Shown here: in pieces, positions 722-47,132 of the stretch
Layout: every line of letters begins with the position of its first letter
Numbering within the stretch: position 1 is the first letter of the stretch
Assembly: GCA_036023115.1 (NCBI GenBank)
Contig: JAYKKT010000064.1
Span: forward strand, 8,440,501-8,504,500
Reading direction: 5' to 3'
Source of the DNA: Brasenia schreberi
Taxonomy: Eukaryota > Streptophyta > Magnoliopsida > Nymphaeales > Cabombaceae
DNA: 64,000 nucleotides
Notes under the pieces: generated by a model
What the model saw: the letters and a program-made list of their open reading frames with translations, nothing else
Databases searched by the model: none
What the model was told of the DNA's origin: nothing
Translations under genes and position numbers: made by a program

Positions 722-3700
722 GTATTCTGCTTTTCAGCCTTTTTTGTCCTTTTTCTGTTTTGACGATTTTTTCATAATGCATTTCTTGAGAGGGTTCAAT
801 ATTTTAGCAGCCTTGTGTTTATAGTGAACTATAAAATGCAGGTACTGAATGTTGTGAGCGTTTGGCATACTATGGTATTGCCACTAACCTCGTCACATAT
901 CTCACAAAAATACTCCACCAAGGGAATGCCTATGCTGCTACTAGTGTTACCACCTGGTCAGGCACCTGCTATCTCACACCGCTCATTGGAGCTATTTTGG
1001 CTGATGCTTATTGGGGAAGATACTGGACAATCGCAGTATTCTCTTCAATTTACTTTATTGTAAGCACAGAATTTTTTGGCAAATGAAATTGTTTGTCCTC
1101 TTTCTTTTGGTGATTTTGTTTGTGCTCTTCCACCATACAAGCATATCATAATTTTGCTTTTCTTTTCTCGCATTATCATTATCATTTTAGCTTTTTCTTT
1201 TCAAGTAGATCTTCACATACCGCTTGTTTTGATTTCTAGGGAATGGGTACCTTGACTCTTTCTGCTTCAGTTCCTGCATTCAAACCTCCCTTTTGTGTTG
1301 GGGATGTTTGTCCTGAAGCAAGTGTTGCACAGTATGCCATATTCTTTTTAGGTCTCTATCTGATTGCATTAGGAACTGGCGGCATCAAGCCCTGTGTCTC
1401 GTCATTTGGGGCAGATCAGTTTGATGATACCGATGCAACTGAGCGAGTGCGGAAAGGTTCCTTCTTTAATTGGTTCTACTTTTCTATCAACCTTGGAGCT
1501 CTTGTTTCAAGCAGTTTGATTGTATGGATACAAGAGAACGCTGGCTGGGGCTTAGGGTTTGGTATCCCCACATTGTTCATGGGACTTGCAATTGGGAGCT
1601 TTTTCACAGGCACATCACTCTACAGGTTTCAAAGGCCAGGTGGAAGCCCTTTGACTAGAGTTTGCCAGGTTATTGTTGCTTCTGTGCGGAAGTGGAATGT
1701 CACCGTCCCTCTTGATAGTTCACATTTACATGAAGTAGAGGATAAAAACTCAGCCATTGAAGGGAGTCGGAAATTGGAGCACACAGACGAATTCAGGTAC
1801 TCTTTAAATTTCCTGGTTGTGGATGCATGACCATCCTATTACCTTCTGCTTGAAAAGATTGTTAGAAACGTGGTTGCACAACGGATAATCAATAGTAAAA
1901 AACATGAACAAAAAGATAAGAGGAAAAATATGGAGATCGGAGGAGGGCGCGGACCTCCAATGGAGGCCGCCCCCCCCTCTTTCTCTCTCTTTCTTAATCT
2001 CAGCAACTTAACCCTAATTACAACTTATCAGCCCTTATATAAGGAACTGTAAAACATAAAATGACTAAAATACCCCTAGTACAGAAAATTACCAAAATGC
2101 CCTTACGACTTCGGACAATTACAATAATACTCTAAACATCAATTTTACTGTCTTAAGACATTATATGTACTAAAACTGACTCTAAACTCATTCTTCAACA
2201 CCCCCCTCAAGTTGGGAGTGAGATACTTCGAACTCCAAACTTGCCAAAAATCTTCATCTGTCTGCAACATTCTTCATCTGTCTTCATCACTGGTTTAATC
2301 TTCAACAGCTTCTTTGGCTGCAATATCTTCAACTCAGCCTTCTTGGCTGATCATATCAAGCAGCATCTCAAGCAGCATCTCTGGCTGCAACATCAACTCA
2401 GCCATTCTTGCTTATCATCTCAAGCAGCATCTCTGGCTGCAATATAAACTTAGCCTTCCTGGCTAATCATCTCAAACAGCATCTCTGACTGCAACATCAA
2501 CTCAGCCATCCTGGCTTATCATCTCAAGCAGCATCTCTGGCTGCAACATCAACTCAGCCCTCCTGGCTGATTATCTCAAGCAGCATCTATGGCTGCAACA
2601 TCAACTCAGCCTTCCTGGTTTATCATCTCATGACTTTCTTCATCACACGTGTACTAGTAATTTCTTCGAGGCTTCTGTAAAACAACTTGAACAATTAAGA
2701 ACACATGGGTAACACCCGACCCTTTTATGGGTGTCGGTTGCTCCCCCTCTCTTTCTTTTCTCTATAAAGTGATTTGAAAGCTACACTTAAAAAAACATGT
2801 TTCTTTTGCTCTTGAGAAAGCTGATCTTTTGTGATAGGAGGTACTACTCCACCATACACACTTCACACGGCTTTTTCTACGCCCCTTCACATGGTGGCTG
2901 CAGCCGGTGTCTTGGTTGGGTGCCCTCTCTCTACCACTCAAATAGCAGAATACAGACATCTGCTTATAGTAGTCGGTCTGCGCCCCTTCACATGGTGACT
3001 GCAACCGCTTTTACAGCCCTCCTGGCTGTTTACTTCAGCAACCCAAGTTCTTAACTTTCATGATTATTGGTAATACTGCCACATTCTATATCAATAAATT
3101 CTTCTGGCCTCTTCAATGATTTAATTTTTCATGCATATGTAGTGAAAAAGACTGATTTTCTGTATTTTTCTGATTTTTTTTTCCAGCACCTTGGCTGTCC
3201 ATTTTTAAGCAGCCTTCCTTGCTGCAACACTTTTTCAGCAACCTTCACGGTTGCAATATCTTCAGCAGCTTCATGGCTGCGATAATTTTCACCAGCTTCT
3301 TGGCTATAACAACTCTTCAATTCAGCCTTTATGGCTGTCTTTTCCAGCAGCTTTTATAGCTGTAAATTTCTGCAACTTCAATGACTACAAATAATCATCG
3401 TTAACATGCTTTTCAGACACCTGAAATAATAATTCTTCTAACAATCTTTCTCTGGCATACAAGTCTTTTATAGATGTCACTCAGCACTATCGCATCCTGC
3501 AAGAAGCTCTTTCAGAAGTTGCACATATTCCCCTCCATTCGGCTGGAGCTTCTCTCGTCTTTGGAAGGTCGATAGAAGTTTGTCAATGGATTCTTGAATT
3601 TCCTGCTTGACAATATAAAATGGGTCTTGTGCTGATGACATCATTTCTTCCTTTTCACCATAAGTAATTGACTGAAAACTTCTGCAAGTTTCTGAAATGT

Positions 3701-6700
3701 ATTGTTGTAGTACTTAATCGTGGTGCATTGCCACCAGTTGCAAGCATTTCTCGAACACTTGGCATGCAACTTCTAATTCCCAGAAGGATCCAACAAGTCA
3801 CAGTAGGATTCTGAAAAGAACGTGGGATCGTTCTCCTGTTTAATCTAGCTCATCTCTTTCATGTTCCTCTTGAATTCTTTGAATCGAATTCCAATTTCAT
3901 GGATTCACCTAATTCTGCAATATGAAGAAACGGGAAGTGGTGGATCTAAAATCCCGTTTAAGGAAACCTCTTTTGCTTATTGCTGGCGAAAGAATTATAA
4001 GATAAACTGGATTTCAGCAGACCCCAACTCAACTAGATCCAGATGCATCCAGAAAAAAAAAATCAGAATGTTCATAAATATGTTCCCTACAAAAGCCATG
4101 ACAATGTCAGGACTTCCATGTTTTTGCAGTTCCTTAACCCAATATTGTGCTTTATGGATTGTATCCATGCTTGTTATGTCATAGACAATTATTGCAATAG
4201 CTGCTCCATGGTAGTATAGAGGGGCCAGTGCTGCATACCTTTCCTGACCAGCAGTGTCTTAATGCATTTGGTCCTCCAGTGGATCTACCTGACATTGATG
4301 CAGAGCCCCACCAGGAATAGCATATTTCCAAGAGAATCATATTCTCCTTCATCCAACAACTCACCATCTGCATCATCACCTTATGCTGTGCTAGCAGAAT
4401 ACCTGTATTTCCTTTATCTGTAGTAACTACTTTATTTATGTGGATAATGGATAGCAGTTAGAATAGCAGTTACCATTTTCCTTTCCCAAAAAACGTGGGA
4501 ATAAGAAAGTGACAATACGGCTTGTTCAGATGCATAAAATCCTGAGACATTAAATATTTCAAACATCATCTGAATTAATTTCTCCCAAACAACCTTTGGT
4601 GTTGCAATAGGATCTGTAAATAAAATCTGCCCCTCATTGCCCTCTTCCCATTCAAAACCAGTGTAGAGAACATAACGTAGCAAATCTTCCATAGCATCCC
4701 AGTCTTTTATAAAACCCCTAATGACTGAATCAACTGTGACATCATCATAAGCTAATGTATCAACAGGTTGGCCATCTTAGTAGGAATAATCAGGGAGGGT
4801 TCCTGTAACTCAATCACACGTCTGATTACTTGCCTCTGGGAGCTCCATGATTTTGATCCTCCTTCCTTGTTGAAGCAGATGCATCCTTCTTCAAAATATC
4901 CCTCTAGAGAAACCACTCTTTTGTTCTCTATTGCTTTTCTCTCCATTCATAGCCGATGAACCTGCAGGGCACTCTCTCGTCTTCTACTTTAAGGTGAATT
5001 ATCCATACCGCATAGCTCAACTAGGCTTTCACCAAGTTCATTATCTTCAGACACACCGGCTGAAGTACTAGTTAATGCTGGATCATGTATTGCTTGCAAT
5101 AATGTTTTCCATGTTGGCAAGGGTGGAACTTATAGAAGATAATCTCTCATGTCCCTCGAGATGATTCTGGTTAATCCTTTTCCGGACATTGCTAACAAAA
5201 GAACTATCCCATGAGTCACTGCCAGCACCGCTATCCTGTGAATGGACATGTCCTCTCCGCGTGGTTGTCATTGGAACTCGTGAACAACTAGCAGAAAACC
5301 TGAGTCGTCCATAAGGATGATACCATCCTTGTGCAAAGTATCTTCTGAAAGACCTTACTCGCTGTTGAGTTTGAGCGATACCTCGGTCACTATCCACACC
5401 ATACTGGCTATGGATCCCATTGAGAATTTCATCCAAATGAAAGTTAGCATCTTCCGGCCTTCTTGACATGAGCATTCTCTGCCGCAATACCCATATGATG
5501 TCTTCTTTTTTTCTTCACTTCGGTCGATCTTCTAAGGTTTAGGCTCTGATACCATGTTAGAAACGTGGTTGCACAACGGATAATCAATAGTAAAAAACAT
5601 GAACAAAAAGATAAGAGGAAAAATATGGAGATCGGAGGAGGGCGCGGACTTCCAATGGAGGCCGCCCCCCCTCTTTCTCTCTCTTTCTTAATCTCAGCAA
5701 CTTAACCCTAATTACAACTTATCAGCCCTTATATAAGGAACTGTAAAACATAAAATGACTAAAATACCCCTAGTACAAAAAATTACCAAAATGCTCTTAC
5801 GACTTCGGACAATTACAATAATACTCTAAACATCAATTTTACTGTCTTAAGACATTATATGTACTAAAACTGACTCTAAACTCATATTCTTCAACAAAGA
5901 CTACTAATAAATGACATTCATATATATGTCGCAAAGTTTCCCTAGACTCGGATTATGATTCAGATGTTATTCTACCATGGGTTTTTCAAATACGGTCAAC
6001 TATCTTATACTCATGTATGCCCATTTATGTACTTCGTTCTTCTTTAGGTTTCTTGATAAATCTGCCACATTGGTTGATATGGAGGTAAAAAGCAATAACT
6101 TTACCGACCGGTGGAGACTCTGCACGGTGACACAAGTTGAGGAACTGAAAATTCTGGTCCGAATGTTTCCTATCTGGGCTACTGGGATAGTATTTTCTGC
6201 TGTCTATGCACAGATGTCTACCATGTTTGTGGAACAAGGGACGACCATGGATACCTCTCTTGGTTCATTTACTATTCCCCCTGCATCCTTATCAGTGTTC
6301 GATGTATTGAGCGTGATTATCTGGGTCCCGCTTTATGACCGCATACTTGTCCCCATAGCGCGAAAATTGACAGGGAAGGAGAGAGGATTTTCTGAGCTGC
6401 AAAGAATGGGTATCGGCCTCTTCATATCCATATTGGCCATGACTGCAGCTGCATTAGTGGAAATCAGGCGCTTGCAAATTGTTAAAGAACTTGGTTTAGA
6501 GCACGATGCATCAACAACTGTGTCGCTGAGAATATTTTGGCAGATACCACAGTATTTCTTGATTGGTGCAGCAGAAGTATTCACTTTCATTGGCCAGCTC
6601 GAGTTCTTCTACGATCAGTCCCCCGATGCAATGCGGAGTCTGTGTAGCGCATTTTCCTTGCTGACAACTGCACTTGGTAATTACTTGAGCACCTTCATAG

Positions 6701-6873
6701 TAACTGTTGTAACTGCGGTGACAACACGGGGTGGGAGTGCTGGCTGGATACCAGATAACTTGAATGAGGGTCATCTCGACTATTTCTTTTGGCTATTGGC
6801 TGGGCTTAGCTGGTTCAATCTCTTGGTTTATGTCACCTGCGCTGGTCGATACAAATGCAAGAAGGCCTCCTGA
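616..6873 (+). CDS. NPF8-type (PTR family) proton-coupled peptide transporter, four exons, 5' partial
   Basis: Four exons (616-721, 842-1059, 1240-1796, 6048-6873) with GT-AG borders join in frame to 568 codons plus TGA. This is about 20 residues short of the usual length of roughly 580-590. The product closely resembles Arabidopsis PTR2/NPF8.3: a twelve-helix major-facilitator carrier that imports di- and tripeptides with protons, at the plasma membrane or tonoplast depending on the member. Visible hallmarks are the ExxER proton-coupling motif in TM1 (ECCER), the PTR signature around [33 protein letters not shown], and [14 protein letters not shown] with [19 protein letters not shown] in the C-terminal half. 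The frame is unbroken. Intron 4 (1797-6047) holds a 4-kb retrotransposon that must be spliced out. Substrate and exact subgroup cannot be told from sequence alone. Confidence 0.93.
842..1059 (+). CDS. NPF8 exon, TM1-TM2 with the ExxER motif
   Basis: The exon follows AATGCAG and reads [16 protein letters not shown] at its start, which includes the ExxER motif of proton-coupled oligopeptide transporters. It continues through [15 protein letters not shown] and [11 protein letters not shown] and ends at a phase-0 GTAAGC donor. The start codon of the carrier is not here; the alternative upstream ATGs belong to other frames. Confidence 0.92.
1240..1796 (+). CDS. NPF8 exon, TM3-TM6 and start of the central loop
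   Basis: Starts [15 protein letters not shown] after TTTCTAG and ends in the cytosolic loop EHTDEFR, splitting the arginine codon at a GTACTC donor. It contains the PTR signature with [17 protein letters not shown], the [16 protein letters not shown] helix, [15 protein letters not shown], and the RFQRPGGSP loop typical of NPF8. The following intron is the one that received element T1. Confidence 0.94.
1860..2200 (-). repeat. T1 3' LTR (left copy)
   Basis: Bounded by TG and CA on the plus strand (TGTTAGAAAC to TTCTTCAACA). On the element's own strand it contains a TTATATAAGG TATA box. It matches the copy at 5555-5896 almost base for base. Confidence 0.95.
2330..2640 (-). repeat. 52-bp tandem repeat with paired hairpins inside T1
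   Basis: GGCTGCAA or a one-base variant occurs at 2383, 2435, 2487, 2539 and 2591, a strict 52-bp period over about five and a half units. Each unit contains two short inverted repeats: GCAGC-ATCTCTG-GCTGC and AGCC-ATCCT-GGCT. The units vary at several positions, so they are not a very recent expansion. The array lies just inside the 3' LTR. Confidence 0.85.
2641..3380 (-). repeat. Irregular continuation of CAGC/GCTG hairpins in T1
   Basis: Beyond the strict array, similar short inverted repeats continue at irregular spacing, for example ACAGCC-CTCCT-GGCTGT near 3013 and a run from 3190 to 3360 in which CAGC and GGCTG blocks alternate every 30-40 bases. Reading frames through this part are short and of low complexity. 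I see no captured gene here. Confidence 0.6.
3477..3644 (-). pseudogene. Captured fragment of a SYP61-like syntaxin gene (N terminus)
   Basis: On the minus strand an ATG at 3641 opens [20 protein letters not shown] and continues for about 54 codons to a TGA at 3477-3479. SYP61 is a Qc-SNARE of the trans-Golgi network, and plant SYP61 proteins begin [24 protein letters not shown]. The TGA stands where SYP61 has the tryptophan after a CDSAE-like stretch, so a TGG-to-TGA change probably closes the frame. Only the N-terminal helix start is present; the SNARE motif and membrane anchor are absent. The fragment is in the sense direction of T1, and a few codons upstream of the ATG are also open. Confidence 0.85.
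4089..4257 (-). pseudogene. Captured fragment of an ARA6/RABF1-like Rab GTPase gene
   Basis: About 56 minus-strand codons are open: [18 protein letters not shown], then [11 protein letters not shown], then [17 protein letters not shown] and MAFVGN. This is the G3/switch-II to G4 part of a Rab GTPase. The wording, especially [20 protein letters not shown], matches the plant-specific Rab5 relative ARA6/RABF1, which acts on endosomes. Similarity stops abruptly at GN, just before the K of the NKxD motif, and begins just at the DTAG motif. Both ends may therefore be exon borders or capture breakpoints. No P-loop or C-terminal part is present, so no GTPase could be made. Confidence 0.88.
4505..4825 (-). 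pseudogene. Captured fragment of an ARP7-like nuclear actin-related protein gene
   Basis: The minus strand reads [14 protein letters not shown], then after a frame change near 4783 [59 protein letters not shown] and [19 protein letters not shown]. This is the N-terminal third of a plant ARP7, an actin-related subunit of SWI/SNF-type chromatin-remodelling complexes. [13 protein letters not shown] and [17 protein letters not shown] are typical of ARP7 rather than of conventional actin. Similarity ends after AVLSL. The frame is open for about 90 codons apart from the one shift. As in the other captures, it is colinear with the T1 transcript. Confidence 0.87.
5083..5487 (-). CDS. Open frame of unknown origin in the T1 leader
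   Basis: 134 codons on the minus strand, starting 68 bases inside the 5' LTR. The product is hydrophilic and rich in Arg, Ser and Gln, with [20 protein letters not shown] near the start and [13 protein letters not shown] in the middle. It has no membrane segment and no gag, zinc-knuckle or protease motif. Near the end, a shift of frame continues plausible coding sequence ([20 protein letters not shown]), which suggests a longer original exon with a frameshift. I do not recognise the family. Since the rest of T1 consists of host gene pieces, this may be another captured fragment, but that is inference. Confidence 0.5.
   Translation of the reverse strand: MRQRMLMSRRPEDANFHLDEILNGIHSQYGVDSDRGIAQTQQRVRSFRRYFAQGWYHPYGRLRFSASCSRVPMTTTRRGHVHSQDSGAGSDSWDSSFVSNVRKRINQNHLEGHERLSSISSTLANMENIIASNT
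5542..5554 (-). other. T1 primer-binding site
   Basis: Minus strand TGGTATCAGAGCC, directly internal to the 5' LTR. This is the usual plant copia site paired with the 3' end of initiator tRNA-Met. It fixes the orientation of the element. Confidence 0.9.
5555..5896 (-). repeat. T1 5' LTR (right copy, promoter LTR)
   Basis: Repeats 1860-2200 with three base changes, one fewer C in a C-run, and an extra AT near the end. As the 5' LTR on the minus strand it should start the element's transcript, reading away from the last NPF8 exon. Confidence 0.95.
6048..6873 (+). CDS. NPF8 terminal exon, TM7-TM12
   Basis: Begins [14 protein letters not shown] after TTCTTTAG, completing the arginine codon, and ends GRYKCKKAS with TGA at 6871-6873. 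It includes [52 protein letters not shown], the conserved [19 protein letters not shown] and the final helix. No stop or frameshift is seen in 275 codons, in contrast to every transposon frame nearby, so purifying selection is likely. Confidence 0.95.
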
Positions 6874-12268: not shown

Positions 12269-15200
12269 GTACATCTCTTCCTTAACGAGTAAAGATCCTT
12301 GGTCTTTATTAGTAGATTTTGAGTTAGATCATTTTTGTCTTTTTGGCTGTGTTTGGCACACACTTACTTTGATAGTGTTTCGGCTGACTTTGTAGTAAAG
12401 GGATATGAATTTTGGGAATTTTTCTATTGCTTCTATTCAACAACAACAACAACAACTAACACTTTTCCCATACTAGATGGGGTCGGCTACATGGATTGTG
12501 TTTCCATAGAGCTCGATCATGTGCCATACTAATAGGTAACTCAACATAAGTTAGATCATTCTTTATTGTTTCCTTCCCAGTGAGCTTTCTCTTCTTCTTT
12601 TAACATTATCTCAATCTAGTTTCTTATACTTTCTTACGGGAGCTTCCTTCGGTCGTCTTTCTATGTGTCCAAACCATTTTAAATGATTTCCCTTCATTTT
12701 ATCATCTATTGGTACCACCAATTTGTTTCTAGTAACGTCATTATTTAGACGGTCTTTCCTTGTATGACCACTCATCCATCTTTATTTCTGCCACAAACAT
12801 CTTTTGTACATGTTGATGATTAACTGCGTAACACTCGTAACCATGTAATATAGTGGATCTAATTGCTGCTCTATAATATTTACCTTTCATTGCAACATAA
12901 AATACCATATGCACATTTCCATTTTAACCAACCTTAATTATACATAACATCTCCATCAAATTTTCTTTCGTTCTAAAAAACTAGCCTTAGGTATTTCAAT
13001 CTTTCCTAATGAGAGATGCAATGTGTGTCAATCTTAAACCTTAAGTGTGTATACCGAAAGTTTTTCCAACAAAAAAATAAACCTTGGATCTAACAATGAC
13101 TTGGTAAAGAAATTTGTCAGATGAAGTTCCGAAGGCACATAGCATAAGGTCAACTTTTTCTTCAAACATTCCTCTCTAATAAAGTGGCAATCCATCTCGA
13201 TGTGCTTGGTTCTTTTATGAAAGGTATTGTTGGATGCTATGTTAATCACACTCTTCTTGTCATAAAACGTAATAGAGGATTGCTCAAGAATGACTCCCAT
13301 GTCTCTCACACCTCAACAATCCATGAAATATCAGCGACAACAGTTACCATTACGTAGTATTCTACTTATGTTGAAGACAAAGACACCTTTTCTTGCTCCT
13401 TGCATATTCAGGAGATCAAAGATTCACCTAAAAATACACAAAAACTGGGGGTGGAGTGTTGATTATTCACATATCCACCCCATTCAACATCAACATATAT
13501 AGTCAAATCAAGAGAAGATGAAGAAGTTAGAAACACCCCCTTATCTATAGAGTCCTTAATGTATTTGATGATTCTCATGACCGCACTCATGTAAGCACTA
13601 GTAGGTATTTGATGAAACTGGCTTGCAGTGTGAACAACATGTGATATATTGGAACAAGTGATAGATAGATAAGTCAAGGCCCCTATTAGCTGTCTATATG
13701 GTATTGGATCTTCTTATTTCTCTCCTTCCGTTGCTCTCAATTTTGTTCTAAGTAGTTCGGGTGTATCTACCTTCTTCTCATCAGTTAGTCCTGACTTGTT
13801 AACAATATCACTTGCAAATTTTGTTTGAGACAAAATATCTTCTATCACTATGATTTCAATTTCCAACAAATAACTAATCAATCCAAGATCTTTCATTTCA
13901 AATTCTCCGCGAAGATCCTTTTTTACTTAAGGATACCATCTTCATCACTTTAAGTGATGATCATGTCATCAATATATAAAAGAAGAATCATTATACCTGT
14001 AGTGAAGTTTCTTGCAAATAAAGCTGTGTTAATATATCAGGATACAAACTTATGCAAATGCATGAAACTTTCAAATTTATCAAACCAGACCTTAGGGGCT
14101 TGCTTAAGACCGTATAAAGCCTTTTTTAATCCAAGGACATGGTTTTTCGAAACATTGTCCTTGAGGAGAGATCATATATAACTTTTCGTTTAGCTTACCA
14201 TTCAAGAAGGCATTCTTAACATCTAATTCAAAGATTTTCTACTTTCTAATAACACTAAGGGTTATAATCTAAGGACATGGTTTTTCGAAACATTGTCCTT
14301 GAGGAGAGATCATATATAACTTTTCGTTTAGCTTACCATTCAAGAAGGCATTCTTAACATCTAATTCAAAGATTTTCTACTTTCTAATAACACTAAGGGT
14401 TACTAGGATTCTTATGGTACTCGTTCTGGCAACATGAGAAAACGTTTCCTCATAGTCTATTTCATATTCTTCGGTATAACCTTTAACTATTAGTCTAACT
14501 TTATATCTTTCTATGCTGCCATCGCTATGAGATTTTACCTTGTATACCCATCTACAATCAATAAATTTCTTGCCCATAGGTTAAGTATACTTTCCTAAGT
14601 ATGAGCTTTATCTAAGGCAACTCCGCCCATGTAAGGGATCACCCTTGCATTGTTGGTCCCAAGCTCGGATAAAGGAGGAGGGTTGTGTTAGGCTTCCGAC
14701 AGCCAGCGTAAAACTTTGTCAGATTTTTATAACATGGATTACAAAAATTATGAGCATTGCTTTAGGGCATCCTCACCTAGCGACGTACATCAGAGCCCGA
14801 ATGCAGTAATAAGTAAGCAAGGGCTACTACATTTTCGTCCGAATGTAGTGAATCAATTGCAGAGAGGGTTCCCACATCATGGACGAGTGTGGGTAAAGAA
14901 GTTAGTCCCGCTACATTGCTGCCCGAATATAGTGAATACTTTTCAGAGAAGGTCTTCGCATTTTGATTATGGACGGATGCTGGGGGTAAGGAAGCTAGTC
15001 CTAGATAATAAGATTCGTATTGGTTCTTGGAATATCGGAACATTATCTGGTAAGCTAATAGAGGTGGTAGATACTACGATTCGGAGAAAGATTCATATTC
15101 TATGTTTACAAGAGACAAAATGAGTTGGAGAAAAAGCAAAGGAGATAGAGGATATAGGTTTTCAAGTCAGATTTTTACAACATGGATTACAAAAATTATG

Positions 15201-18200
15201 AGCATTGCTTTGGGATGTCCCCGCCTAGTGACGTGCTGCAGAGCCCGAATGCAATAAGAAGTAATCAAGGGCCACTACATTTTCGCCCGAATGTAGTGAA
15301 TCAATTGCAGAGAGGGTTCCCACATCATGGACGGGTGTGGGTAAAGAAGTTAGTCCCGCTACATTGCCGCCCGAATGTAGTGAATAATTTGCACAGAGGG
15401 TCTCCGCATTTTGATTATGGACGGATGCGGGGGGTAAGGAAGTTAGTCCTAGATAATAAGATTCGTATTGGTTCTTGAAATATCGGAACATTATCGGGTA
15501 AGCTAATGGAGGTGGTAGATACTATGATTCGGAGAAAGATTCATATATCTATGTTTACAAGAGACAAAATGGGTTGGAGAAAAAGCAAAGGAGATAGAGG
15601 ATACAGGTTTTAAATTATGGCACTCAGGTAAAGAAAAGGCTCGAAACGGAGTTGGTATTATCATAAATAAAGATTTAAAGGAGAGTGTAGTAGACATACA
15701 ACGATATGGTGACCGAATCATGACGTTGAAATTAGTGTTAGGAGCAGAGGTTTTGAATATAGTTTGTGCTTACGCACCCCAAGTAGGATTAGAAGATAGT
15801 ATAAAGACAGTTTTTTGGGAAGAGTTAGATTAGGTATTTCAAAAGATTCCATAAAGGGAGATGATTTGTTTAGGAGGAGATTTAAATGGACATGTCGGTA
15901 AAGAGGCATTAGGATATCAAGGGATTCATGGAAACTTTGGTTTTTGGGGATATAAACGAGGAAGGTAGGGAGATTTTAAATTTTGCTATGTCATTTGATC
16001 TCTTTATAGTTAATACAATCTTCAAAAAATGAGATGAACATTTAATTACTTATAAGAGTGGCTTATCACAAACAAAAATTGATTACTTTATTTGTAGAAA
16101 AAAAGATAGATCGTGTTGTAAACATTACAAGGTAATTCTCGAAGAAAGCCTAACCACCCAAAATCGACTTTTAGTTATAGATTTACAAATAAAAAAATGG
16201 ACAAAGAAGAAAAGAGTGCATCGAGCTATTCAGACTAAATGCTGGAACCTCAAAAGCGAGAAAGAAGATATATTTCAACAAAAAGTCCTTAAGGAGATGT
16301 TTGGAATTATGTTGGTACACCCTGTGATATGTGGAACAATATGGCTATACATATTAGGAAAGTGGCAAAAGATGTGTTAGGTGTATCTAATGGATGTGTA
16401 CCGGCACAAAAAGAAGCTTGGTGGTGAAGTGAAATAGTGAAAAATAAAATCAAGGCATAGAGGGCATGTTACAAATTACATTATGGTAAGAAAACTAGTG
16501 AAACTTTAGAAGCTTATAAGAAAGCAAAGAAGGAAGCGAAAAAAGCCGTCAATGAAGCAAAAGCTAAAATTTGGGAGGATTTATATAAAAAACTCAACTA
16601 AAAAGAGGGTGAAAGAGATATTTTTAGAATAACTAGGGCTAGAGATAAGAAAACTAAAAATCTTAATTATGTTAGATGCATCAAAGACGAGGATGAAAAA
16701 ATTCTAGTGGCAAATGATGATATAAGAAATAAATGGAAAAACTATTTTTATAAGCTTTTTAATGAAAATAAAGATGTTAGTATTAGCTTAGGAGAGTTAG
16801 CCAAATAAGAAAAGTATATAAACCACAATTTCTACCGACGTATTCAAAAGAATGAAGTCAAAGAATCTCTTAAACATATGAAGGGTGGTAAATCGGTAGG
16901 ACCAAATAATATTCCTATAGAAGTTTGGAAAATACTAGAAGAAATAGGAATCACTTGGCTCACAAGACTAATGAAATAATGAAAAACCAAAAGATGCCTC
17001 AGGAATGGAGAGCAAGCACACTTATACCCATATATAAGAACAGGAGAGACATTCAAAATTGTGCGAATTATCGAGGTCTCAAGTTAATGAGCCATACTAT
17101 AAAATTGTGGGAAAGAATTATCGAACATAGGTTAAGACAAGTATTACAATAGAGAACCAATTTGGATTCATGCCAGGCAGATCTACAGTTGAAGCAATTC
17201 ACCTTTTTGAGACGTCTTATGGAACATTTTAGACCGAAAAAGATAGGGTACCGAGGGAGGTTCTTTGGAGAACTTTGGAAAAAAGAGGTATCCCATTGAC
17301 ATACATTAACCTTATAAGAGACATGTATGATGGTGCAAAAACATGTGTGAGGACTCGTGAAGGAATGACAAACTTCTTTGAAGTTAATATTGGGTTACAT
17401 CAAGGATCAACTTTTAGTCCATACTTATTTATAATGGTGATGGATGAGTTAACAAAACATATTCAAGATGAAGTACCTTGGTGTATGTTATTTGCAGATG
17501 ACATTGTATTAGTGGAGGAGTCTAAGGAAATTTATTAGAAAATTGTAACTATGGAGAGTAACATTAGAAAGCAAAGGCCTCCGACTTAGTAGAACAAAGA
17601 CAGAATATATGGAATGTAAGTTTGATAAATTGGTTACTTGAGAGGACATAAAAATTTAAATTGGCACACATTGCATCTCCCAAAAGGAAAGTTTTAAATA
17701 CCTAGGGTCAATTTTTCAGAGTGATGAAAGAATTGATGGAGATGTTACGCATAGAATTAGTGCTGGTTGGTTAAAATAGAGAGGGGCATCAGGTATTCTT
17801 TGTGATAAGAAGATACCATTAAAGTTAAAATGTAAATATCATAGAGCAACAATTAGGCCTGCCATGTTTTATGGTGCTGAGTGTTGGACAGTTAATCATC
17901 AACATGTATAAAAGATGTCTTAGACAAAAATTCTTAATCTTGTCTGAAATTAGTGCTGGTTGGTGAAAACTTATCATTCTTGTCTGTATATACAAAACAT
18001 CTACACCCAAAAATTCTTAATCTTTCATAATTCAGATTAAGACCAAACAAATTTTCAAAAAAAGAAATATCATTAAGTTGGGAGAAAGCCATCCTATTTA
18101 TTAGGTATATGGCGATTTGGGTAGCTTCCACCCATAAGTACTTTGATACTTTACTAGCAATCAAAAGAGTTCTAGTGGTTTCTATAATGTGTCTATGTTT

Positions 18201-27200: not shown

Positions 27201-30200
27201 GGTTGATTTTCAAGTGGTAGAATTGGTGTCACATTAGGTGAATAAATATCTAATTGTTGACCTTCTTGTTTGCTATAAAATGGTGTATCTTTATGGAAAG
27301 TAACATCTATAGTAACATATGACTTTCTTTTGATAGGATCATAGCATTTATACCCCTTCTAAGTAGCAGAATACAATAACAACTATGCCTTTTCCCATTC
27401 TAGACGGGGTCAGCTACATGGATTCTTTGTTTTCATGATCCCTATCTTGTTTCATGTTAGCAATTAACTTATAATAAGCTAGATCATTCTTTATCTGAGT
27501 AGCAGAATATCCCAAGAAAATGCATTTAACAGCTCAAGCATCTAATTTATCTCTCATACCATAGTATATATGAACAAAGCAAGTACACCCAAACACTTTT
27601 GGTAGTAAATGAAATTGTTTTTGAGCAGGACATAAAGAACCCTGCTTGGCATACGGTTGATAAGATACACAACTGTCAATACGGTTGATGGAGATGTTAC
27701 ACATAGAATTAATGCTGGTTGGTTAAAATGGAGAGGAGCATCAGGTATTCTTTGTGATAAGAAGATACCATTAAAATTAAAAGGTAAATATTATAGAGCA
27801 GCAATTAGGCCTGCCATGTTTTATGGTTCTGAGTGTTGGGCAGTTTATCATCAACAGGTACAAAAGATGTCTGTGACAGAAATGAAGATGTTGAGATGGA
27901 TGAGTGGTCATACAAGAAAAGACCATATACATAATGAGGTTATTAGAAACAAATTAGGAGTGGCACCAATAGAGGATAAAATGAGAGAACATCGTTTAAG
28001 ATGGTTTGGACATATAGAAAGAAGATCAAAAGAAGAACCTGTAAGAAGGTTAGAAAAACTAAATTTGGAAAGTATTAAAAGAGGTAGAGGACGACCACAA
28101 AAGTGTTGGAAAGAAACAATAAAGAATGATCTAGCTTATTGTTAGTTAACTGCTAACATGGCACACGATAGGGATCTGTGTAAACAAAGAATCCTTGTAG
28201 CCGACCCCGTCTAGTATGGGAAAAGGCTTAGTTGTTGTTGTTGTTGTTTGTTGTAAATCTATAACTAAAAGTCGATTTTGGGTGGTTAGGCTTTCTTCGG
28301 GAATTACCTTGTAATGTTTATAACACGATCTATCTTTTTTTCTATAAATAAAGTAATCAATTTGTGTTCGTGATAAGCGACTCTTATAAGTAATTAAATG
28401 TTCATATCATTTTTTGAAGATTGTATTGACTATAAAGAGATCAAATGCCGTAGCAAAATTTAAAATCTCCCTACCTTCCTCATTTATATCCCCAAAACCA
28501 AAGTTTCCATGAATCCCTTATCCTAATGTCTCTTTACCAACTTGTCCATTTAAGTCTCCTCCTAAACAAATCATCTCCCTTTGTGGAATCTTTTGAATCA
28601 CCTTATCTAACTTTTCCCAAAAAGTTGTTTTTATACTATCTTCTAGTCCTACTTGGGGTGCGTAAGCACAAACTATATTCAAAACCTCTACTCCTAACAC
28701 CAATTTCAATGTCATGATTCAGTCACCATATCGTTGTATGTCTACTACACTATGCTTTAAATCTTTATTTTTGATAATACCAAATCCGTTTCGAGACTTT
28801 TCTTTACTTGAGTACCATAATTTAAAACATGTATCCTATATCTCCTTTGCTTTTTCTCCAACCCATTTTGTATCTTGTAAACATAGAATATGAATCTTTC
28901 TCCGAATCATAGTATCTACCACCTCCATTAGCTTATCGGATAATGTTCCAATATTCAAAGAACCAATACGAATCTTATTATCTAGAACTAGCTTCCTTAC
29001 TTCCCGCATCCGTACATAATCAAAATGCGGAGACCCTCTCTGCAAATTATTCACTATATTCGGGCGGCAATGTAGTGGGACTAACTTCTTTACCCACACC
29101 CGTCCATGATGTGGGAACCCTCTCTGCAATTGATTTACTACATTTGGCCGAAAATGTAGTGGTCATTGCTTACTTATTACTGCATTCGGGCTCTGAAGTA
29201 CGTCGCTAGGCGAGGATGCCCTAAAGCAATGCTCATAATTTTTGTAATCCATGTTATAAAAATTCGACGAAGTTTTACGTTGGCTGTTGAAAGCCTAACA
29301 TAACCCTCCTCCTTTATCCGGGCTTGGGACCGACAATGCAAGGGTGATCCCTTACACGGGCAGAGTTTTTTGTGTACATGTATTTAAAATTTTCTCATCA
29401 CATGTCATGTGAAATGAGGTCCCAGAATCAAGTAACCATGAATTCATACCTTGTCCTTGGAGGTGGTGGAGCATAATGCACCAATAGATGTCTTTTCCTT
29501 TAATTCAACCTTAAGTTGCTTCATCTTTTCTTGAATTGCAAGGAGGTTGAAAGTTTGAACTACTTCTCCATCCATAACGGCTACCTTTTTCTTCAATTTT
29601 GGACATTTCTTCATAATGTGACATTTCTTTACAATAGAAATATACTTCTTATTTGTATTATTAGTCCCTCTTGTTTTAATTGCAGGGGTCAATATGGTCT
29701 TATATTAGTCCCCGACCTAGATGCAACCAATGTGGAATCCTTTTGGACTCTGACTTCATTAAATCTTGTTTCCGCTATTCAAAGATCTAAAAGTAACTCT
29801 TCTCTTGTTGCGAATGACTTCTGGTATATAAGAGAGGACCACACTCTTTCAAACTCTTCTTTCAAGCTTCTAAGTAATTGATAGAAGAAATCTTCATTTT
29901 GTTTGCATTGCCTTACGTCAAGACAATGTGTATACTTTCTTTCGTATCCACGAAGTTGGTTTCAAATATTTGAAAATTCACTATAATATTCTTTTATTTC
30001 CTTATCTAAGAGATGAAAGCTTATCTCAGAGGGCCGTTAGTATGAGCCAATCACTTTGAACATGAGCTCTTTTCAAATAATCCCATGCATCTTTTACACT
30101 CATAAATTTCGACAAGGCATCACGTGTTGTTCCAAAGTAACGCTTGTGGATGACTCTATTTTGGTTCCACTAATATAGCTCCATAGTTTTATGAAATATA

Positions 30201-33200
30201 GGTAGTTTTTTGGGCTCTCTTTTTATAATTCGAGTTAGTCAAACGGAAATTAAATCCCTTTTCTTCCACAAAAAACCTTAAATCAAACTGTAGACTTGAT
30301 TGAAGTATCTTAAAACAAAGAGTATTCTTACTTAAATCGGTGAGAAAACAATCCACAAGAGAACAAAGTGTCTTCTTTTCCTTTGCAGATAATTTCTTCT
30401 ATGTGATCCGCTTCCCAATGCAACCGTGAGAGCGATTAGCGCTCTAATACCATGTAAAGAATCAGCACGTCTAGTGCTTTGCCAATAACTGCCACAGTCA
30501 ACCACTTGGATTATCAAGAGATTAGTCACTAATGTGACTGCAAACAGCTTTAAAGGAAAGCAGCTTCAAAGGAAATATAAATCACAGCAAAATTGCTCGC
30601 AATTGAATACCCTTTGAATTCAATTGAATTAATCAGTCACCAAGGCTTAGATCAATTGTATGTAGCCTTAAGTTGTACTTAAGGGGTAGCCGGCAGCAAG
30701 CAGAGGCTACTAGCCCTTGGGAACTGAGATCATGTTCATTGGTTGCATTTGCATACCATCCCTTGGCTTGTGATTTTGTCTCTGATGAAATTCTTCCTGA
30801 TGTTTCATTCATATGACTTTCTTAGTAGTTTCTTGGGCTATAGCGGTTCCTTTAAGCCTTTCAAGGAAAGAATCATGTATAATTTTTGTGATTCGTGTTG
30901 TCTAATTAGATTCATATTGCCGGTTCCAAGCCCATTTAAGGGATCATCCTTGCGTTGTCGGTCCCAAGCCCGGATAAAGGAGGAGGGTTGTGTTAGGCTT
31001 CCGATAGCCTAAAACTTCGTCGGATTTTTACAACATGGATTACAAAAATTATGAGCATTGCTTTGGGGCATCCTCGCCTAGCGACGTACATCAGAGCCCG
31101 AATGCAGTAATAAGTAAGCAAGGGCTACTACATTTTCGTCCGAATGTAGTGAATCAATTGCAGAGAGAGTTCCCACATCATGGACGAGTGTGGGTAAAGA
31201 AGTTAGTCCCGCTACATTGCCGCCTGAATATAGTGAATACTTTTAAGAGAAGGTCTTCGCATTTTGATTATGGACGGATGCGGGGGGTAAGGAAGCTAGT
31301 CCTAGATAATAAGATTCGTATTGGTTCTTGGAATATCGGAACATTATCTGGTAAGCTAATAGAGGTGGTAGATACTATGATTCGGAGAAAGATTCATATT
31401 CTATGTTTACAAGAGACAAAATGAGTTGGAGAAAAAGCAAAGGAGATAGAGGATAAAAGTTTTAAATTATGGTACTCTGGTAAAGAAAAGGCTCGAAACG
31501 GAGTTGGTATTATCATAAATAAAGATTTAAAGGAGAGTGTAGTAGACATACAACGATATGGTGACCGAATCATGACGTTGAAATTAGTGTTAGGAGCATA
31601 GGTTTTGAATATAGTTTGTGCTTACGCACCCCAAGTAGGACTAGAAGATAGTATAAAGGCAGTTTTTTGGGAAGAGTTAGATAAGGTGTTTCAAAAGATT
31701 CCACAAAGGGAGGTGATTTGTTTATGAGGAGATTTAAATGGACATGTCGGTAAAGAGGCATTAGGATATCAAGGGATTCATGGAAACTTTGGTTTTGGGG
31801 ATATAAACGAGGAAGGTAGGGAGATTTTAAATTTTGCTGTCATTTGATCTCTTTATAGTCAATATAATCTTCAAAAAATGATATGAACATTTAATTACTT
31901 ATAAGAGTCGCTTATCACAAAAAAAATTGATTACTTTATTTGTAGAAAAAAAGATAGAGCGTGTTGTAAAGATTGTAAGGTAATTCCAGAAGAAAGCTTA
32001 ACCACCCAACATCGACTTTTAGTTATGGATTTACAAATAAAAAAATGGACAAAGAAGAAAAAAGTGCATCGTGCTATTCGGACTAAATGGTGGAACCTCA
32101 AAAGCGAGAAAGAAGATATATTTAAACAAAAAGTCCTTCAAGGAGATGTTTGGAATTATATTGGCACACCCTGTGATATGTGGAATAATATAACTATACA
32201 TATTAGGAAAGTGGCGAAAGATGTGTTAGGGGTATCTAAGGGAGGTGTACCGGCACAAAAAGAATCTTGGTGGTGGAGTGTAGTACAAAATAAAATCAAG
32301 GCAAAGAGGGCATGTTCCAAATTATATTATGCTAAGAAAACTAGTGAAACTTTAGAAGCTTATAAGAAAGCAAAGAAGGAAGCGAAAAAGGCCATCAATG
32401 AAGTAAAAGCTAAAATTTGGGAGGATTTATATAAAAAAATCAACTCAAAAGAGGGTGAAAGAGATATTTTTAGGATAGCTTGGGCTAGAGAGAAGAAAAC
32501 TAAAGATCTTAAATATGTTAGATGCATCAAAGATGAGGATGAAAAAATTCTTGTTGCAAATGATGATATAAGAAATATATAAAAAATTGATTTTTATAAG
32601 CTTTTTAATAAAAAGAAAGATGTTACTATTAGCTTAGAAGAGTTAGCCAAGTCAGAAAAGTATAAACCACAATTTCTACCGACGTATTCAAAAGAATGAA
32701 GTCAAAGAGGCTCTTAAACATATGAAGAGTGGTAAATTGGTAGGACCAGATAATATTCCTATAGAAGTTTGGAAAATACTAGGAGAAATAGGTATCACTT
32801 GGCTCACAAGACTATTTAATGAAATATGAAAAAACCAAAAGATGCCCGAGGAATAGAGAGCAAGTACACTTATACCCATATATAAGAACAAGGGAGACAT
32901 TCAAAATTGTGCGAATTATCGAGGTATCAAGTTAATGAGTCATACTATGAAATTATGGGAAAGAATTATCGAACGTAGGTTAAGACAAGTATCAAGTACA
33001 ACAGAAACCAATTTGGATTTATGCCAGGTAGATCTACTATTGAAGCGATTCACCTTTTGAGATGTCTTATGGAACATTTTAGAGCAAAAAAGAAAGACCT
33101 TCACATGATATTTATTGAATTAGAAAAAGCTTATGATAGGGTACCGAGGGAGGTTCTTTGGAGAACTTTGGAAAAAAGAGGTATCCCATTGACATATATT

Positions 33201-36200
33201 AACCTTATAAGAGACATGTATGATGGTGCAAAAACATGTGTGAGGACTCATGAAGGAACGACAGACTTCTTTGAAGTTAATATTGGGTTACATCAAGGAT
33301 CAACTTTAAGTCCATACTTATTTATAATGGTGATGGATGAGTTAACAAAACATATTCAAGATGAAGTACCTTGGTGTATGTTATTTGCAGATGACATTGT
33401 ATTAGTGGAGGAGTCTAAGGAAAAAGTTAATAGAAAATTGGAACTATGGAGAGAAACATTAGAAAGCAAAGGCCTCCGACTTGTTTGAACAAAGACATAA
33501 TATATGGAATGTAAGTTTGATCATTTGGCTACTTCAGAGGACATAGAAATTAAAATTGGCACACATTGCATTCCCCCAAAAGAAAGTTTTAAATACCTAG
33601 GGTCAATTTTTCAAAGTGATGGAAGAATTGATGGAGATGTTACACATAGAATTAATGCTGGTTGGTTAAAATGGAGAGGAGCATCAGGTATTCTTTGTGA
33701 TAAGAAGATACCATTAAAATTAAAAGGTAAATATTATAGAGCAGCAATTAGGCCTGCCATGTTTTATGGTTCTGAGTGTTGGACAGTTAATCATCAACAT
33801 GTACAAAAGATGTCTGTGACAGAAATGAAGATGTTGAGATGGATGAGTGGTCATACAAGAAAAGACCGTATACATAATTATGTTATTAGAAACAAATTAG
33901 GAGTGGCACCAATAGAGGATAAAATGAGAGAATATCGTTTAAGATGGTTTTGACATATAGGAAGAAGATCAAAAGAAGAACCTATAAGAAGGTATGAAAA
34001 ACTAAATTTGGAAAGTATTAAAAGAGGTAGAAGATAATAGAAAAATAATCACATTCATTAAGATAACCAAACTTACAAAATATGGTAGATTGGAGGCATT
34101 CCTCCAATCTGCCCCCAAAAGGAAGAAGTCGGCTCTCACAGCTGCCGCTCAACCACTATGCTTCTTAATGCACTAAACCCTAATCACTACTACTTATACC
34201 CTATCTAACTTGAATTCCTAAACTACTCCTAATTATTATTAATTACTACTAAAGCGACATGAACCTTACATAACGTGACATACATAAGAAAACGTGAAAT
34301 ACATATCTTTAACACTCCCCCTCATTTTGGGTGAAGGATGTTGATAACACCGAACTTAAATAATGTCTCCTTTAGTTGCTTGCTTCTAGTTGCCTTTGTT
34401 AAGAAATCAACCCTATGTTTCATGGATTGAACATATTCAGCTTGAATTCTTGATTAGCTATCTTCTCTCTGATAAAGTAACAGTCAATTTCTATATGCTT
34501 TATCCTTTCATGATATACTGGATTAGAAGCCATCTGAATATGCTGCACTACTGTCACAGTATAGTGGTATAGAAAGATTAGAAGGAAATCCCAGTTCTCT
34601 GATCAAAGAAGATACTCATTTTTCTTGACACATGGCTTGTGCTATGGCTCTGTATTCGGCTTCTGCTGTTGATCTGGCAACCACTGTCTGTTTTTTACTT
34701 TTCCAAGAAATAATATTGTCCCCTAGTAAAGTAACATAACCTGTAGTTGATTTTCTGTCATCACGTGAACCTACTCAGTCTGCATCAGAATAAAGTTCAA
34801 TGTATAGATTTGATGACTTTGAATAAAGCAACCCCATTCCTTAAGTGGATTTTAGGTATCAAAGAATTCTGTACACTGCACACATGTGATTCTTGGTAGG
34901 AGAATGCATATATCTGCTCACAACACCGACTGCATAGGTAATATCTGGATGTGTGATAGTCAAATATATGAGTTTGCCAACCGACTTATGGTATTTGTGA
35001 ATGTCTTTAAATTTTTCACTATCACCACTGAATAATTTCTGATTTACTTCCATAGGAATGTCGCTCAGTTTACATTCGAGCATATGTGTATCTTAAAGAA
35101 GATCCATTAAGTATTTACGCTGCGTCAGGAAGATACCTCGGTTAGAATAGAGAACCTCTATGCCCAAAAAATAGTGTAGCCTACCCAAATCTTTAAGATC
35201 AAATAATGCATGAGGATTATGCTTTAACTTGGATATTTCTTCAAGATCATCTCCTGTGACGATTATGTCATCCACATAAACAGCAAGTATCGATATTTTG
35301 GTTCCTTTCTTGAAGAAGATTGTATGATCATTGAGGCTACTGCTGTATCCTGGACTGCACACTGCCTTACTGAATTTATCAAACCAAGCTCGGGGAGACA
35401 GCTTTAACCCATAAATTGCTTTATTGAGTTTACATGCTTTATTGGCAGACATTTTTATATCCATGCCTGGAGGAATCTCCATATAAACTTCTTCATTTAA
35501 GTCACCTTGTAAGAAAGCATTTTTAACATCTAGTTGCCATAGGTTCCATACCAAATTTGCTGCCATACTGAGAAGTATTCTGATTGAGGTAAGTTTAGCA
35601 ACTGGTGCAAAAGTCTCTGTATAATCAATACTATATGACTGACTGTATCCTTTGGCAACCAATCTCGCTTTATATCTCTCCACAGTTCCATCTGCCTTAT
35701 ATTTAATGGTAAATACCCATTTGCATCCAACAATATTCCTATCCAGAGGTAGCTGTGTGATGGTCCATGTATTATTTCTTACAAGAGCATTCAATTCTTC
35801 TTCAATTGCAGCTTTCCATAGAGAGCACTTAACTGCTTCTTCAAATTTTGAAGGAATCTTATGCTTCTCAGCATTCATAACAAATCTCTGATAAGTCTGA
35901 GAGGTATGACCATATGAAACATAATTAGAAATAGGATAACGGGCACAAATACGTTTACCTTTGCGAATAGCAATAGGAATTTCGAGATCTTCTCTTCCTT
36001 CCACAATAGGATCTGAGTCAGGGGAAATATCTTTGGTGCTTGTATATGGTGCTGGTTCTTCTTCAGTGTAGATAATATTTCTCAACCCTTTCTTATACCT
36101 TAATATCTCTTCTTGCTTACTGTCCTTATTTCTATTATCATCTGCATTCTCTTTGGCATCGCCTGGGACTACTGGTAGGACATATGAGGAAATTTGCTTA

Positions 36201-39200
36201 GATGTAATTGACTCCCCCTGAGAAGTATAATAGGGAATAGATTCAGAGAAGGTAACATCCATGGAAACATATAGCTTCTTGGCTAGAGGATCATAACACT
36301 TATAACCTTTTTGGGAGTTAGAATAGCCAAGGAAAATGCACTTAACAGACTTAGGGTCTAATTTATCACGATGAGGTAAATGGATATGTACAAAACAAGT
36401 ACAACCAAAGATACGAGGAATCAAATGAAAAGGTTTTGATTCCTTATCCAGACACTTTAATGGACTTTCACCACAAAGTACTGTACTGGGCATTCTATTG
36501 ATCAGATGAACTGCAGTAAGAACGGCTTCTCCCCAATAGAATTTAGGAACATTGTTCTGAAGTAGAAGGGTCCTGGCTACTTCTAGAATATGACGATTTT
36601 TTCTCTCAGCAATTCCATTTTGTTGGGGAGTATAAGGACAGGAGGTCTGGTGAACTATTCCATGTGTCTGTAAATATCCAGCTAATTGTTTGCTAATGTA
36701 TTCCCCCATTATCTGAACGCAGAATTTTTACTGGAGTATTGAATTGGGTGAGAATGAATTTATGCACAATTGAAAAAATAGATGAGACTTCTGACTTTGA
36801 TTTCATTAAATATAGAATTGTAAGACGAGTACAATCATCAATAAAGGAAACAAAGTATCTCTGACCAAACAGTGACATAACAGGACTAGGACCCCAAATA
36901 TCTGAATGAAGGAGTTCAAAAGGCTGAGATCGTCTAGAGTCACTCAATGGATAAGTGACTCTTTGATGTTTCTCAAGCTGACATACTTCACATTCAAACT
37001 GAAGTTTATTGACTCTAAGATGAGGTAGAACATAAGGAAGTTTTGACACAGGTAAATGACTAAGACGATAATGCCAAAGGCAAATCTCTGAATCTTGAAT
37101 TATTGCTGAAGAAGCTTTATACGAGGTTCCATGTTGAGGATGATCTTCCAAAATGTATAAGCCCCTCTGTAGTCTACCATGACCAAAGACTTTCCCCGTC
37201 TTCAGATCCTGAAACACACAATCAGTAGGAGTAAAGGTTATGCTGCATTCCATGGTGCGAGTCAACGAGCTGACAGGAAGTAAATTTATTGGAAAGCTGG
37301 GAACATGATAGACTGATGTTAAATTAGCAAAACAAGTGGGTACACTTCCCTGTCCAACCATATATGCTAACTTAATAGGTTCTTGTTTTGAGAGATGTCT
37401 TTACTCTGAAAAATAAGATGATTCTCCTACCATAAGATATGTGGTACCTGAATCAATAATCTAAATCTTTGAATTAGAATAAGAGGTGTTACCCTTTACT
37501 GTGTGAGTGGCCTGAGCTACCGAGACTTGAGAGGTAGATGGTTGAGACTGTCCAGATTATCTTGTCTCTAGTCCTTCTATTCTCTTAATAAGATCCAACA
37601 TTCCATCTGCATTAGATGTAGTACTATTCTTAGCTGAATGAGCAGAATGATTTCTGTTTTTATAATATTCGGGTTTGCCATGTAATTCCCAACAATATTC
37701 TTTGGTGTGTCTCGATTTTCCACAATGAGAACAGATGAGTTTTTCTTTTTCATGAGGCTGAACTCTTTCACGTCCTCGTCCACGACCTTAATATCCTCTT
37801 CTTCTGCGATAATATGAATTTTCTACTCTGGTTTGGAGTGCATGTTGATCAGTAATAGGAGCATTATTCTTCTTAATATTTCTTCTATCTTCTTCTCTGA
37901 TCAATAATGAGTATACTATTTCCAATGAAGGTAATTCATCTCTTCCCAAGACATTGAACTTTATTGATTAATATTCTGAATTTACACCCCATAGTAAGTC
38001 AAATACCTTTTTCTTTTCTGTCTCTTCATTTCTTTTTGTTTGATATGAGAGGCACTTGATATTAGTATAGTACTGAAGTTAATCCCAAAGTCCCCGAATG
38101 TCTGCATAATAGTCACTGATAGAACGCGAGCCCTGTTTACAATTTCTTATTCTTTCCAAGATTTCATATTCTTTTGCCACATTCTTCTTTATAGAATAAG
38201 CTTCTGACATCGCACACCAAATTTAATACGCTGATTCAAGAAACATGAATGTCTTTGCTATTGATGGATTCATAGACTGCAATAACCAAGAAGAAATCAG
38301 CGCATCTTCTCGTCTCCAAACAGGGTAGAGAGAATCGTTTATGTCTGGAGTAGGTTTCTGACTGATAAGATGAGTCCATCTCCCCCTTGTTATAATCGCC
38401 AGTTTCACAGACCTACACCATTCAAGATAATTTCTGTTATATAATTTTGTTGTAATCTGAAAACCTTCCCCCTTTTCATTCACTGCTTATTCAGACATAG
38501 TGACGGAAGTATCAATTGCCTTACCTTTACTTGCCATAGAAATGCAAGTAATATGAGATCAAACTTGATTTTCACCGCCAATATTAATCTCCCAAATTTG
38601 AAAATCGGCAATATGAAAATCAAAACTATATGATTTTCCCAAATCTGAAAATCGGCAACAAAATGATCAAGGCAATACGATTTTTCCAAATCTGAAAAAA
38701 AAAACTTCCTCCAACTGATAATACCTTGATAATCCAACGTAGTCTATGTGCTTTCAACCAAAAAATCTGAAATTTCTCACTTAATAGGCTCTGATACCAT
38801 AATAGAAAAATAATCACATTCATTAAGATAACCAAACTTACAGCTGCCGCCCGGCCTCTATGCTTCTTAATGCACTAAACCCTAATCACTACTACTTATA
38901 CCCTATCTAACTTGAATTCCTAAACTACCCCTAATTAGTATTAATTACTACTAAAGCGACATGAACCTTACATAACATGACATACATAAGAAAATGTGAA
39001 ATACATATCTTTAACAGAGGATGACCACAAAAGTGTTGGAAAGAAACAATAAAGAATGATCTAGCTTATTGGTAGTTAACTGCTAACATGGCACACGATA
39101 GGGATCTGTGGAAACAAAGAATCCATGTAGCCGACCCCGTCTAGTATGGGAAAAGGCTTAGTTGTTGTTGTTGTTGTAGTTGTTGTCGTGTTGTCTAATT

Positions 39201-41993: not shown

Positions 41994-42282
41994 TTCAGCA
42001 GATTTGAGACATCTCATCCAATCTGCCAGATACATGGAAGACGACGCCCACAGTCGACTGCCTGTCTCTCTACCAGATACATGAAAGATGGCGCTGACAG
42101 TCGGCTGCCTTTCTCTCTACTTCATGCTATCTCTAAACATAACCCTAATCTCTTATTTATAATGACAATCTAACTTGAATGACTAATTTACCCCTGTTAC
42201 TAATTAAGTACTACTGATAAGACATAAAACATAAAATAGATCAGAACGTGTCCACTTTGGGACCCGATTTCAAACTATAACA
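41994..42282 (-). repeat. Copia D 3' LTR (left)
   Basis: Matches 52015-52282 from TTCAGCAGATT onward and ends CTATAACA before the purine tract CTCCTCCTCAAGTTGGG. It contains an extra tandem copy of about 48 bp (CCAGATACATG ... TCTCTCTA), which the right LTR has only once. Confidence 0.85.
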
Positions 42283-42343
42283 CTCCTCCTCAAGTTGGGT
42301 GAAAGATATTAAGAACACCCAACTTGGACAATTTGTCTCTAAG

Positions 42344-45300: not shown

Positions 45301-45404
45301 CTTCCCTGTCCAATCATGTAAGAGAGTGAGCCATCAACCAACATGATTGGCTCCTGTTTTTGAAGTAGATGATATTCTGAAAAATATAAAGACTCTCCTA
45401 CCAT
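42344..45404 (-). pseudogene. Copia D pol (RNase H, RT, integrase, preintegrase), broken
   Basis: Minus strand: RNase H with [20 protein letters not shown] and [16 protein letters not shown] (42344-42562). RT C terminus with LIYFTNTHPDITYVMSIVSR (42740-43045). RT active site [17 protein letters not shown] (42939-43319). RT N terminus [20 protein letters not shown] (43503-43757). Integrase C terminus QQNDIVERKNQHILQVARTL (44417-44656), where the catalytic E remains but the usual GVAE reads DIVE. GAG-preintegrase/protease end [20 protein letters not shown] (45039-45404). Many stops show age. Confidence 0.85.
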
Positions 45405-45438
45405 ATGGTTTGTAGCCCCAGAGTCAATAATCTAAGTT

Positions 45439-46859: not shown

Positions 46860-47132
46860 TGAAAAATATTTATTTAATCAAATAGAAACCACTTACAAAA
46901 TACCGCAGATTGGAGGCATTCTTCCAATCTGCACAAGAACTAAAAGTCGGCCCCCTTGTGCTGCCATCCTGCACTTTTCCTTATTGATTCTAACTAAACC
47001 CTAATCACCTATTTATACCCTATCTAACTTAATTTCCTAATCTACCCTTAGTAAGTATTAACTATTTCTAAGATGACATAGGACTCAAAATGACATGAAT
47101 ATGTATCTACACGACCCGACTTTCATTACACA
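46860..47132 (-). repeat. Copia E 3' LTR (left)
   Basis: 273 bp from TGAAAAATATTTATT to CATTACACA. It shares the segment CAGATTGGAGGCATTC-TCCAATCTGC with the copia K LTR, itself an inverted repeat. The purine tract that follows is damaged (ACTTTCCTTAATGTTGGG). Confidence 0.8.

Follow-up and report, generated by a model that had tools for sequence, protein, structure and literature searches.

Pieces of SYP61, RABF1-type and ARP7 genes within a young non-autonomous LTR retrotransposon of the water lily Brasenia schreberi

The closest described counterpart of the element reported here is Bs1 of maize, a long terminal repeat (LTR) element that the review PMC13317346 describes as having acquired parts of three host genes (H+-ATPase, xylan endohydrolase and beta-1,3-glucanase) and as having a chimeric gene that is transcribed and translated. 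For maize as a whole, the survey PMC2774510 finds gene fragments in 425 intact LTR elements, which it traces to at least 189 separate capture events; under the conditions of that survey, not one of the 425 combines fragments from two or more standard nuclear genes. The DNA analysed here, called the window, is a stretch of 64,000 nucleotides from Brasenia schreberi (contig JAYKKT010000064.1, positions 8,440,501 to 8,504,500). It contains T1, an LTR element of 4,037 bp on the minus strand (1860..5896), whose interior carries pieces of SYP61 (syntaxin-61), of a RABF1/ARA6-type Rab GTPase and of ARP7 (actin-related protein 7). A previous reading made from the letters alone (the sequence-only reading) had described T1 as young, non-autonomous and bearing pieces of three unrelated host genes, and the LTR alignment, Pfam, PDB and protein matches support that description. 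It had also cited Bs1 as a one-gene capture, which the three host gene segments given for Bs1 in the review correct.

T1 and Bs1, as the review portrays the latter, are alike in being LTR elements with segments of three different host genes. They differ in the genes concerned and in the host lineage; moreover, each of the pieces identified in T1 has a short frame of its own, that of ARP7 being frameshifted, and no joined frame was seen, whereas expression is reported for the Bs1 chimeric gene. The gene-capturing LTR elements of maize, rice and sorghum, in the portions of PMC2774510 and PMC3726574 that describe them, resemble T1 in being full-length with internal host gene sequence, but T1 carries three genes, a number that the maize survey, with no multi-gene case in its 425, bears out as unusual for one LTR element, as had been suggested. 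Given the three-gene precedent of Bs1 and the absence of multi-gene cases from the maize survey, T1 is a rare example within the known class of multi-gene LTR elements; like Bs1, it has pieces of at least two unrelated host genes between its LTRs. No LTR element with SYP61, RABF1 and ARP7 together was found in the literature searched on gene capture by LTR elements, on water lily genomes and on the three genes, a body of work that largely leaves out subscription papers and whose silence is not proof of absence. Pack-MULEs and gene-carrying Helitrons are also mobile and carry host gene pieces, but they are DNA transposons, whereas T1 has LTRs, a primer-binding site and a polypurine tract, and none of their ends was found in it at the sensitivity used. 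TRIM and LARD elements share with T1 the combination of LTRs, primer-binding site and polypurine tract without retroviral genes. TRIMs, however, are much shorter, so that T1 at 4,037 bp falls outside their very short total length, the LTRs of LARDs are several kb long, and host gene pieces define neither class.

The termini of T1 are those of a complete non-autonomous LTR retrotransposon. The 5' LTR (342 bp, 5555..5896, minus strand) runs from TGTTGAAG to TCTAACA and contains the motif TATATAAG; the 3' LTR (341 bp, 1860..2200, minus strand) is its partner in the alignment, and both have TG...CA ends. The primer-binding site TGGTATCAGAGCC (5542..5554, minus strand), which we take to be of the initiator-Met tRNA type, abuts the 5' LTR, and the polypurine tract CTTGAGGGGGG (2201..2211, minus strand) abuts the 3' LTR. 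The element is flanked by a probable, near-perfect target duplication, AAGAT on the left (1855..1859) and AAGAC on the right (5897..5901), which match at four of five positions; the chance of a match at least this good is 0.016. Alignment agrees with the original account of intact LTRs, primer-binding site, polypurine tract and target duplication, the last at four of five positions.

In the pairwise alignment of the LTRs, the 340 aligned sites include three transitions and no transversions; there are also two indels, and the Kimura two-parameter (K2P) distance is 0.0089. With substitution rates of 1.3e-8 or 6.5e-9 per site per year, this corresponds to an age of about 0.34-0.68 My, an estimate that carries a large error with three differences. 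At all three transitions the 5' LTR has A or T where its 3' partner has G or C, the pattern expected of methylated-cytosine decay.

No Pfam match to a retroviral domain (gag, integrase or reverse transcriptase) was obtained in the nine interior frames and ten further pieces scanned. Within the frames scanned T1 lacks the gag-pol coding capacity of an autonomous LTR retrotransposon, as the claim that it has no retroviral gene had anticipated. With no recognised pol, an assignment of T1 to Ty1/copia would presumably lean on the style of its primer-binding site and polypurine tract alone. A search of 1501-6300 for known RNA families gave none above threshold, and the junction of LTR and primer-binding site had no match in viral contigs, a set that has little bearing on a plant element and perhaps omits the window's own records.

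The interior does hold some host coding sequence. The ARP7 piece (about 4507..4802, minus strand) spans approximately residues 23-127 of the 361 and is frameshifted close to its beginning. It matches Pfam Actin (E 2.3e-12) and has clear matches in the PDB. A protein search in which T1 pieces were strung together as the query returned 400 matches, the best being ARP7 of Nymphaea thermarum, which scored 170 bits; the runner-up had 158. The best 120 of the 400 were used, and from these 90 proteins of 350-365 residues served as a comparison set. Outside the frameshifted stretch the piece is identical to the Nymphaea ARP7 at 79 of 92 residues, while any other of the 90 reaches at most 73; five rare residues are common to the piece and the Nymphaea protein, and at most two to the piece and any other. 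In 55 columns the 90 proteins show conservation of 95% or more, and the piece departs from it in 5 of these.

The SYP61 piece (about 3480..3645, minus strand) includes the start codon and the N-terminal 54-55 residues, and matches Pfam STX6_10_61_N with an E value of 6e-7 (30.4 bits, cut-off 29.4). With a second strung query, the syntaxin 6/10/61 domain was present in all 58 matches. The top match is syntaxin-61 of Nymphaea colorata (68 bits, next 63), which alone among the 58 has the double-Met start of the piece. PDB support is weak, with syntaxin-6 (E 0.056) taking second place to an unrelated entry (E 0.027). The Rab piece (59 codons, DTAGQE...VGN; 4082..4258, minus strand) matches Pfam Ras (E 2.6e-16), and Rab5-family chains top its PDB list (best 60 of 256 matches). 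It is identical to Arabidopsis ARA6/RABF1 at 47 of 59 positions and to a RABF2 sequence at 36 of 59. On these two sequences the piece appears nearer to ARA6/RABF1 than to RABF2. Of the three gene identities first proposed, ARP7 and SYP61 are therefore top protein matches, and the choice of RABF1 over other Rabs follows from the comparison with two sequences. Both top matches come from Nymphaea, which points, through ARP7 above all, to a host that is probably a water lily. All three pieces lie on the minus strand, that is, on the transcript strand of T1; the minus-strand frames confirm the sense orientation ascribed to them.

Recognised host coding sequence amounts to about 627 of the 3,354 bp of the interior (approximately 19%, from rounded intervals), which does not sustain the description of T1 as consisting almost wholly of pieces of host genes. 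"At least three" genes stands as far as the three identified, and any number beyond three lacks support. A stop-free frame of 143 codons (134 from ATG; 5083..5514, minus strand) had been singled out as unrecognised. It has no Pfam match, searches of proteins 79-250 residues long and, with a strung query, 239-761 residues long gave no relative, and its best PDB match (E 1.2) is at chance level. Its length was dropped as evidence, since shuffling the whole interior produces a stop-free run of 143 codons 72 times in 500, and shuffling the gene-piece half does so 19 times in 500; the lack of a recognised relative holds, and the length is not exceptional.

Between the identified pieces are short coding-like stretches in shifting frames (about 5090-4989, 4910-4830, 4385-4261 and 3860-3660, minus strand). 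As additional captured pieces they were set aside, as Pfam and protein searches matched none of those submitted, though by their coding-like character some may be further gene fragments. The 3' end of the interior, approximately 1.2 kb, is repeat-rich and includes a tandem array of a 52-bp unit (2302..2630, minus strand; 5.1 copies over 2364-2630 by TRF). Degenerate relatives occur at approximately 3014-3037 and 3203-3367. The array and its relatives are variants of short CAGC...GCTG inverted motifs and occupy much of the 3' interior toward the polypurine tract. A special RNA structure for the array was rejected (z -0.43; 33 of 100 shuffles fold equally well or better).

T1 interrupts part of a PTR2/NPF transporter gene on the plus strand (1240..6873), represented by stop-to-stop frames 1240-1830 and 5959-6873. 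The frames on either side match the POT/PTR2 family, at profile positions 14-173 before T1 and 172-392 after it. By eye, the exon before T1 ends at CAG|GT (1796/1797) and the next begins after AG (6047/6048), giving an intron of about 1797-6047 in which the sequence beyond T1 is 214 bp. Since POT/PTR2 matches are found on both sides, T1 sits within a single NPF-type transporter intron, antisense to the gene.

We propose that T1 is a non-autonomous LTR retrotransposon that was mobilised in trans and that had captured its SYP61, RABF1 and ARP7 pieces before the present insertion; we put the probability of this reading at about 0.72. The LTRs, primer-binding site and polypurine tract would act as the cis signals for transcription and reverse transcription. 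That these signals are kept while no retroviral protein is recognised argues for mobilisation in trans, and copying would have been carried out by proteins supplied most likely from copia-type elements. Pieces of SYP61, RABF1 and ARP7 message (or gene), together with unrecognised sequence, would have come to stand in place of the retroviral coding region, most likely through switching of reverse transcriptase between templates onto co-packaged cellular RNAs, perhaps over successive rounds. Template switching onto cellular RNA would give the sense orientation seen in all three pieces. The chimeric element was probably mobile already before this copy entered the NPF intron, which would mean more than one round of movement. 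Measured against the nearest references, which are named Nymphaea species and perhaps not the host, protein divergence is 14% for the ARP7 piece and 26% for the SYP61 piece, while the LTRs differ by less than 1%. Divergence of the pieces, the frameshift in ARP7 and only three LTR substitutions suggest that capture predates insertion, and the captures are probably the older events.

Several points weigh against this proposal. With Nymphaea proteins as references, it is uncertain how far the pieces have decayed in comparison with the genes of the host itself. Four residues of the ARP7 piece occur in none of the 90 homologues, and one homologue also has four private residues; the SYP61 piece has four, the maximum for a homologue among the 58 being five, and it alters just 1 of 24 highly conserved columns. 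By private-residue counts both pieces are within the range of intact homologues. Nor does the SYP61 piece single out Nymphaea, as three of the 58 proteins are equally close to it, each sharing 40 of 54 residues. The sequence TTACAG directly precedes the start of the ARP7 piece and could be a candidate intron acceptor, which would suggest that the source was genomic DNA or an unspliced RNA. Three sense orientations in three would arise by chance in 1 of 8 cases if orientation were random. The target duplication is imperfect, and no further match to the LTRs or interior of T1 of at least 60 bp exists within the window, where neither a second copy nor an autonomous partner was seen.

The most serious alternative is that a DNA transposon (Pack-MULE, CACTA or Helitron) gathered the pieces first and only afterwards became joined to an LTR element, by insertion or recombination. 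In the maize figures of PMC2774510, captures by DNA transposons (1,194 Helitron and 462 other) outnumber those by LTR elements (at least 189), and in T1 a 15-nt inverted pair (3504-3518 and 5342-5356, 93% complementary) spans much of the gene-piece block. The arms of this pair, however, lie inside the SYP61 piece and the 143-codon frame, so the block is not framed by it, and none of the remaining inverted pairs (11-19 nt, taken without shuffle comparison) frames the block either. On neither strand of 3300-5554 is there a CTRRT end with a perfect 6-bp hairpin; the scan required a perfect stem of at least 6 bp, against a background of 0.04-0.08 per strand per 2,255 bp, and is strict enough that a decayed end could escape it. 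The common sense orientation of the pieces with the LTR transcript also counts against capture by a DNA transposon, an origin that we consider unlikely.

The captured pieces are most likely functionless passengers, and the suggestion of the sequence-only reading that a single transcript could affect three host loci gains no support here. T1 could instead be an active regulatory chimera, in which an LTR transcript pairs with NPF pre-mRNA into double-stranded RNA over the pieces, and small RNAs act on SYP61, RABF1 and ARP7. The antisense position of T1 in its host gene makes convergent transcription geometrically possible, and unique small RNAs are recorded at LTR-captured genes in rice (85 of 672) and sorghum (812 of 1,343) in PMC3726574. 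Against this, protein identity to the nearest references is 74% for SYP61 (40/54), 80% for Rab (47/59, Arabidopsis sequence) and 86% for ARP7 (79/92), values that make long perfect matches to the parent genes, and with them efficient sequence-specific silencing, doubtful; we regard such activity as very improbable. Equally far-fetched would be a water-lily family, mobile to this day, that accumulates host exons stepwise by template switching and has, by its antisense NPF insertion, made a natural multi-gene silencing cassette with double-stranded RNA over three pieces. That the LTRs are secondary, with two LTR copies of one family, or recombination, enclosing a host locus that already held the pieces, would fit the lack of a second T1 interior in the window but is scarcely credible beside a primer-binding site and polypurine tract exactly at the inner LTR edges, LTR substitutions at 3 of 340 sites and a four-of-five target duplication inside the transporter intron, edges, similarity and duplication alike being the outcome of one integration.

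Other mobile DNA is present in the window. Three related stretches (34071-38461, 42141-45865 and 46891-51310) are approximately 69-75% identical to one another. Minus-strand frames at 35093-37400 and 47662-48381 have copia-type RVT_2 matches, and the former also matches SH3_retrovirus, gag_pre-integrs and, below cut-off, rve; copia-type elements therefore lie nearby. Long repeats at 14619-17931, 28251-29367, 30930-34034 and 55385-56398 are 83-97% identical, in both orientations, and are apparently several copies of another mobile element.

Water lilies are a lineage near the base of the flowering plants, and the T1 case, outside the grasses, would make Bs1 more than a maize oddity. Records of several genes captured by a single LTR element are rare, and Bs1 is the three-gene case named in PMC13317346. 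If the genome also contains relatives of T1 that have fewer of the pieces, both the order and the mechanism of capture could be read from them directly.

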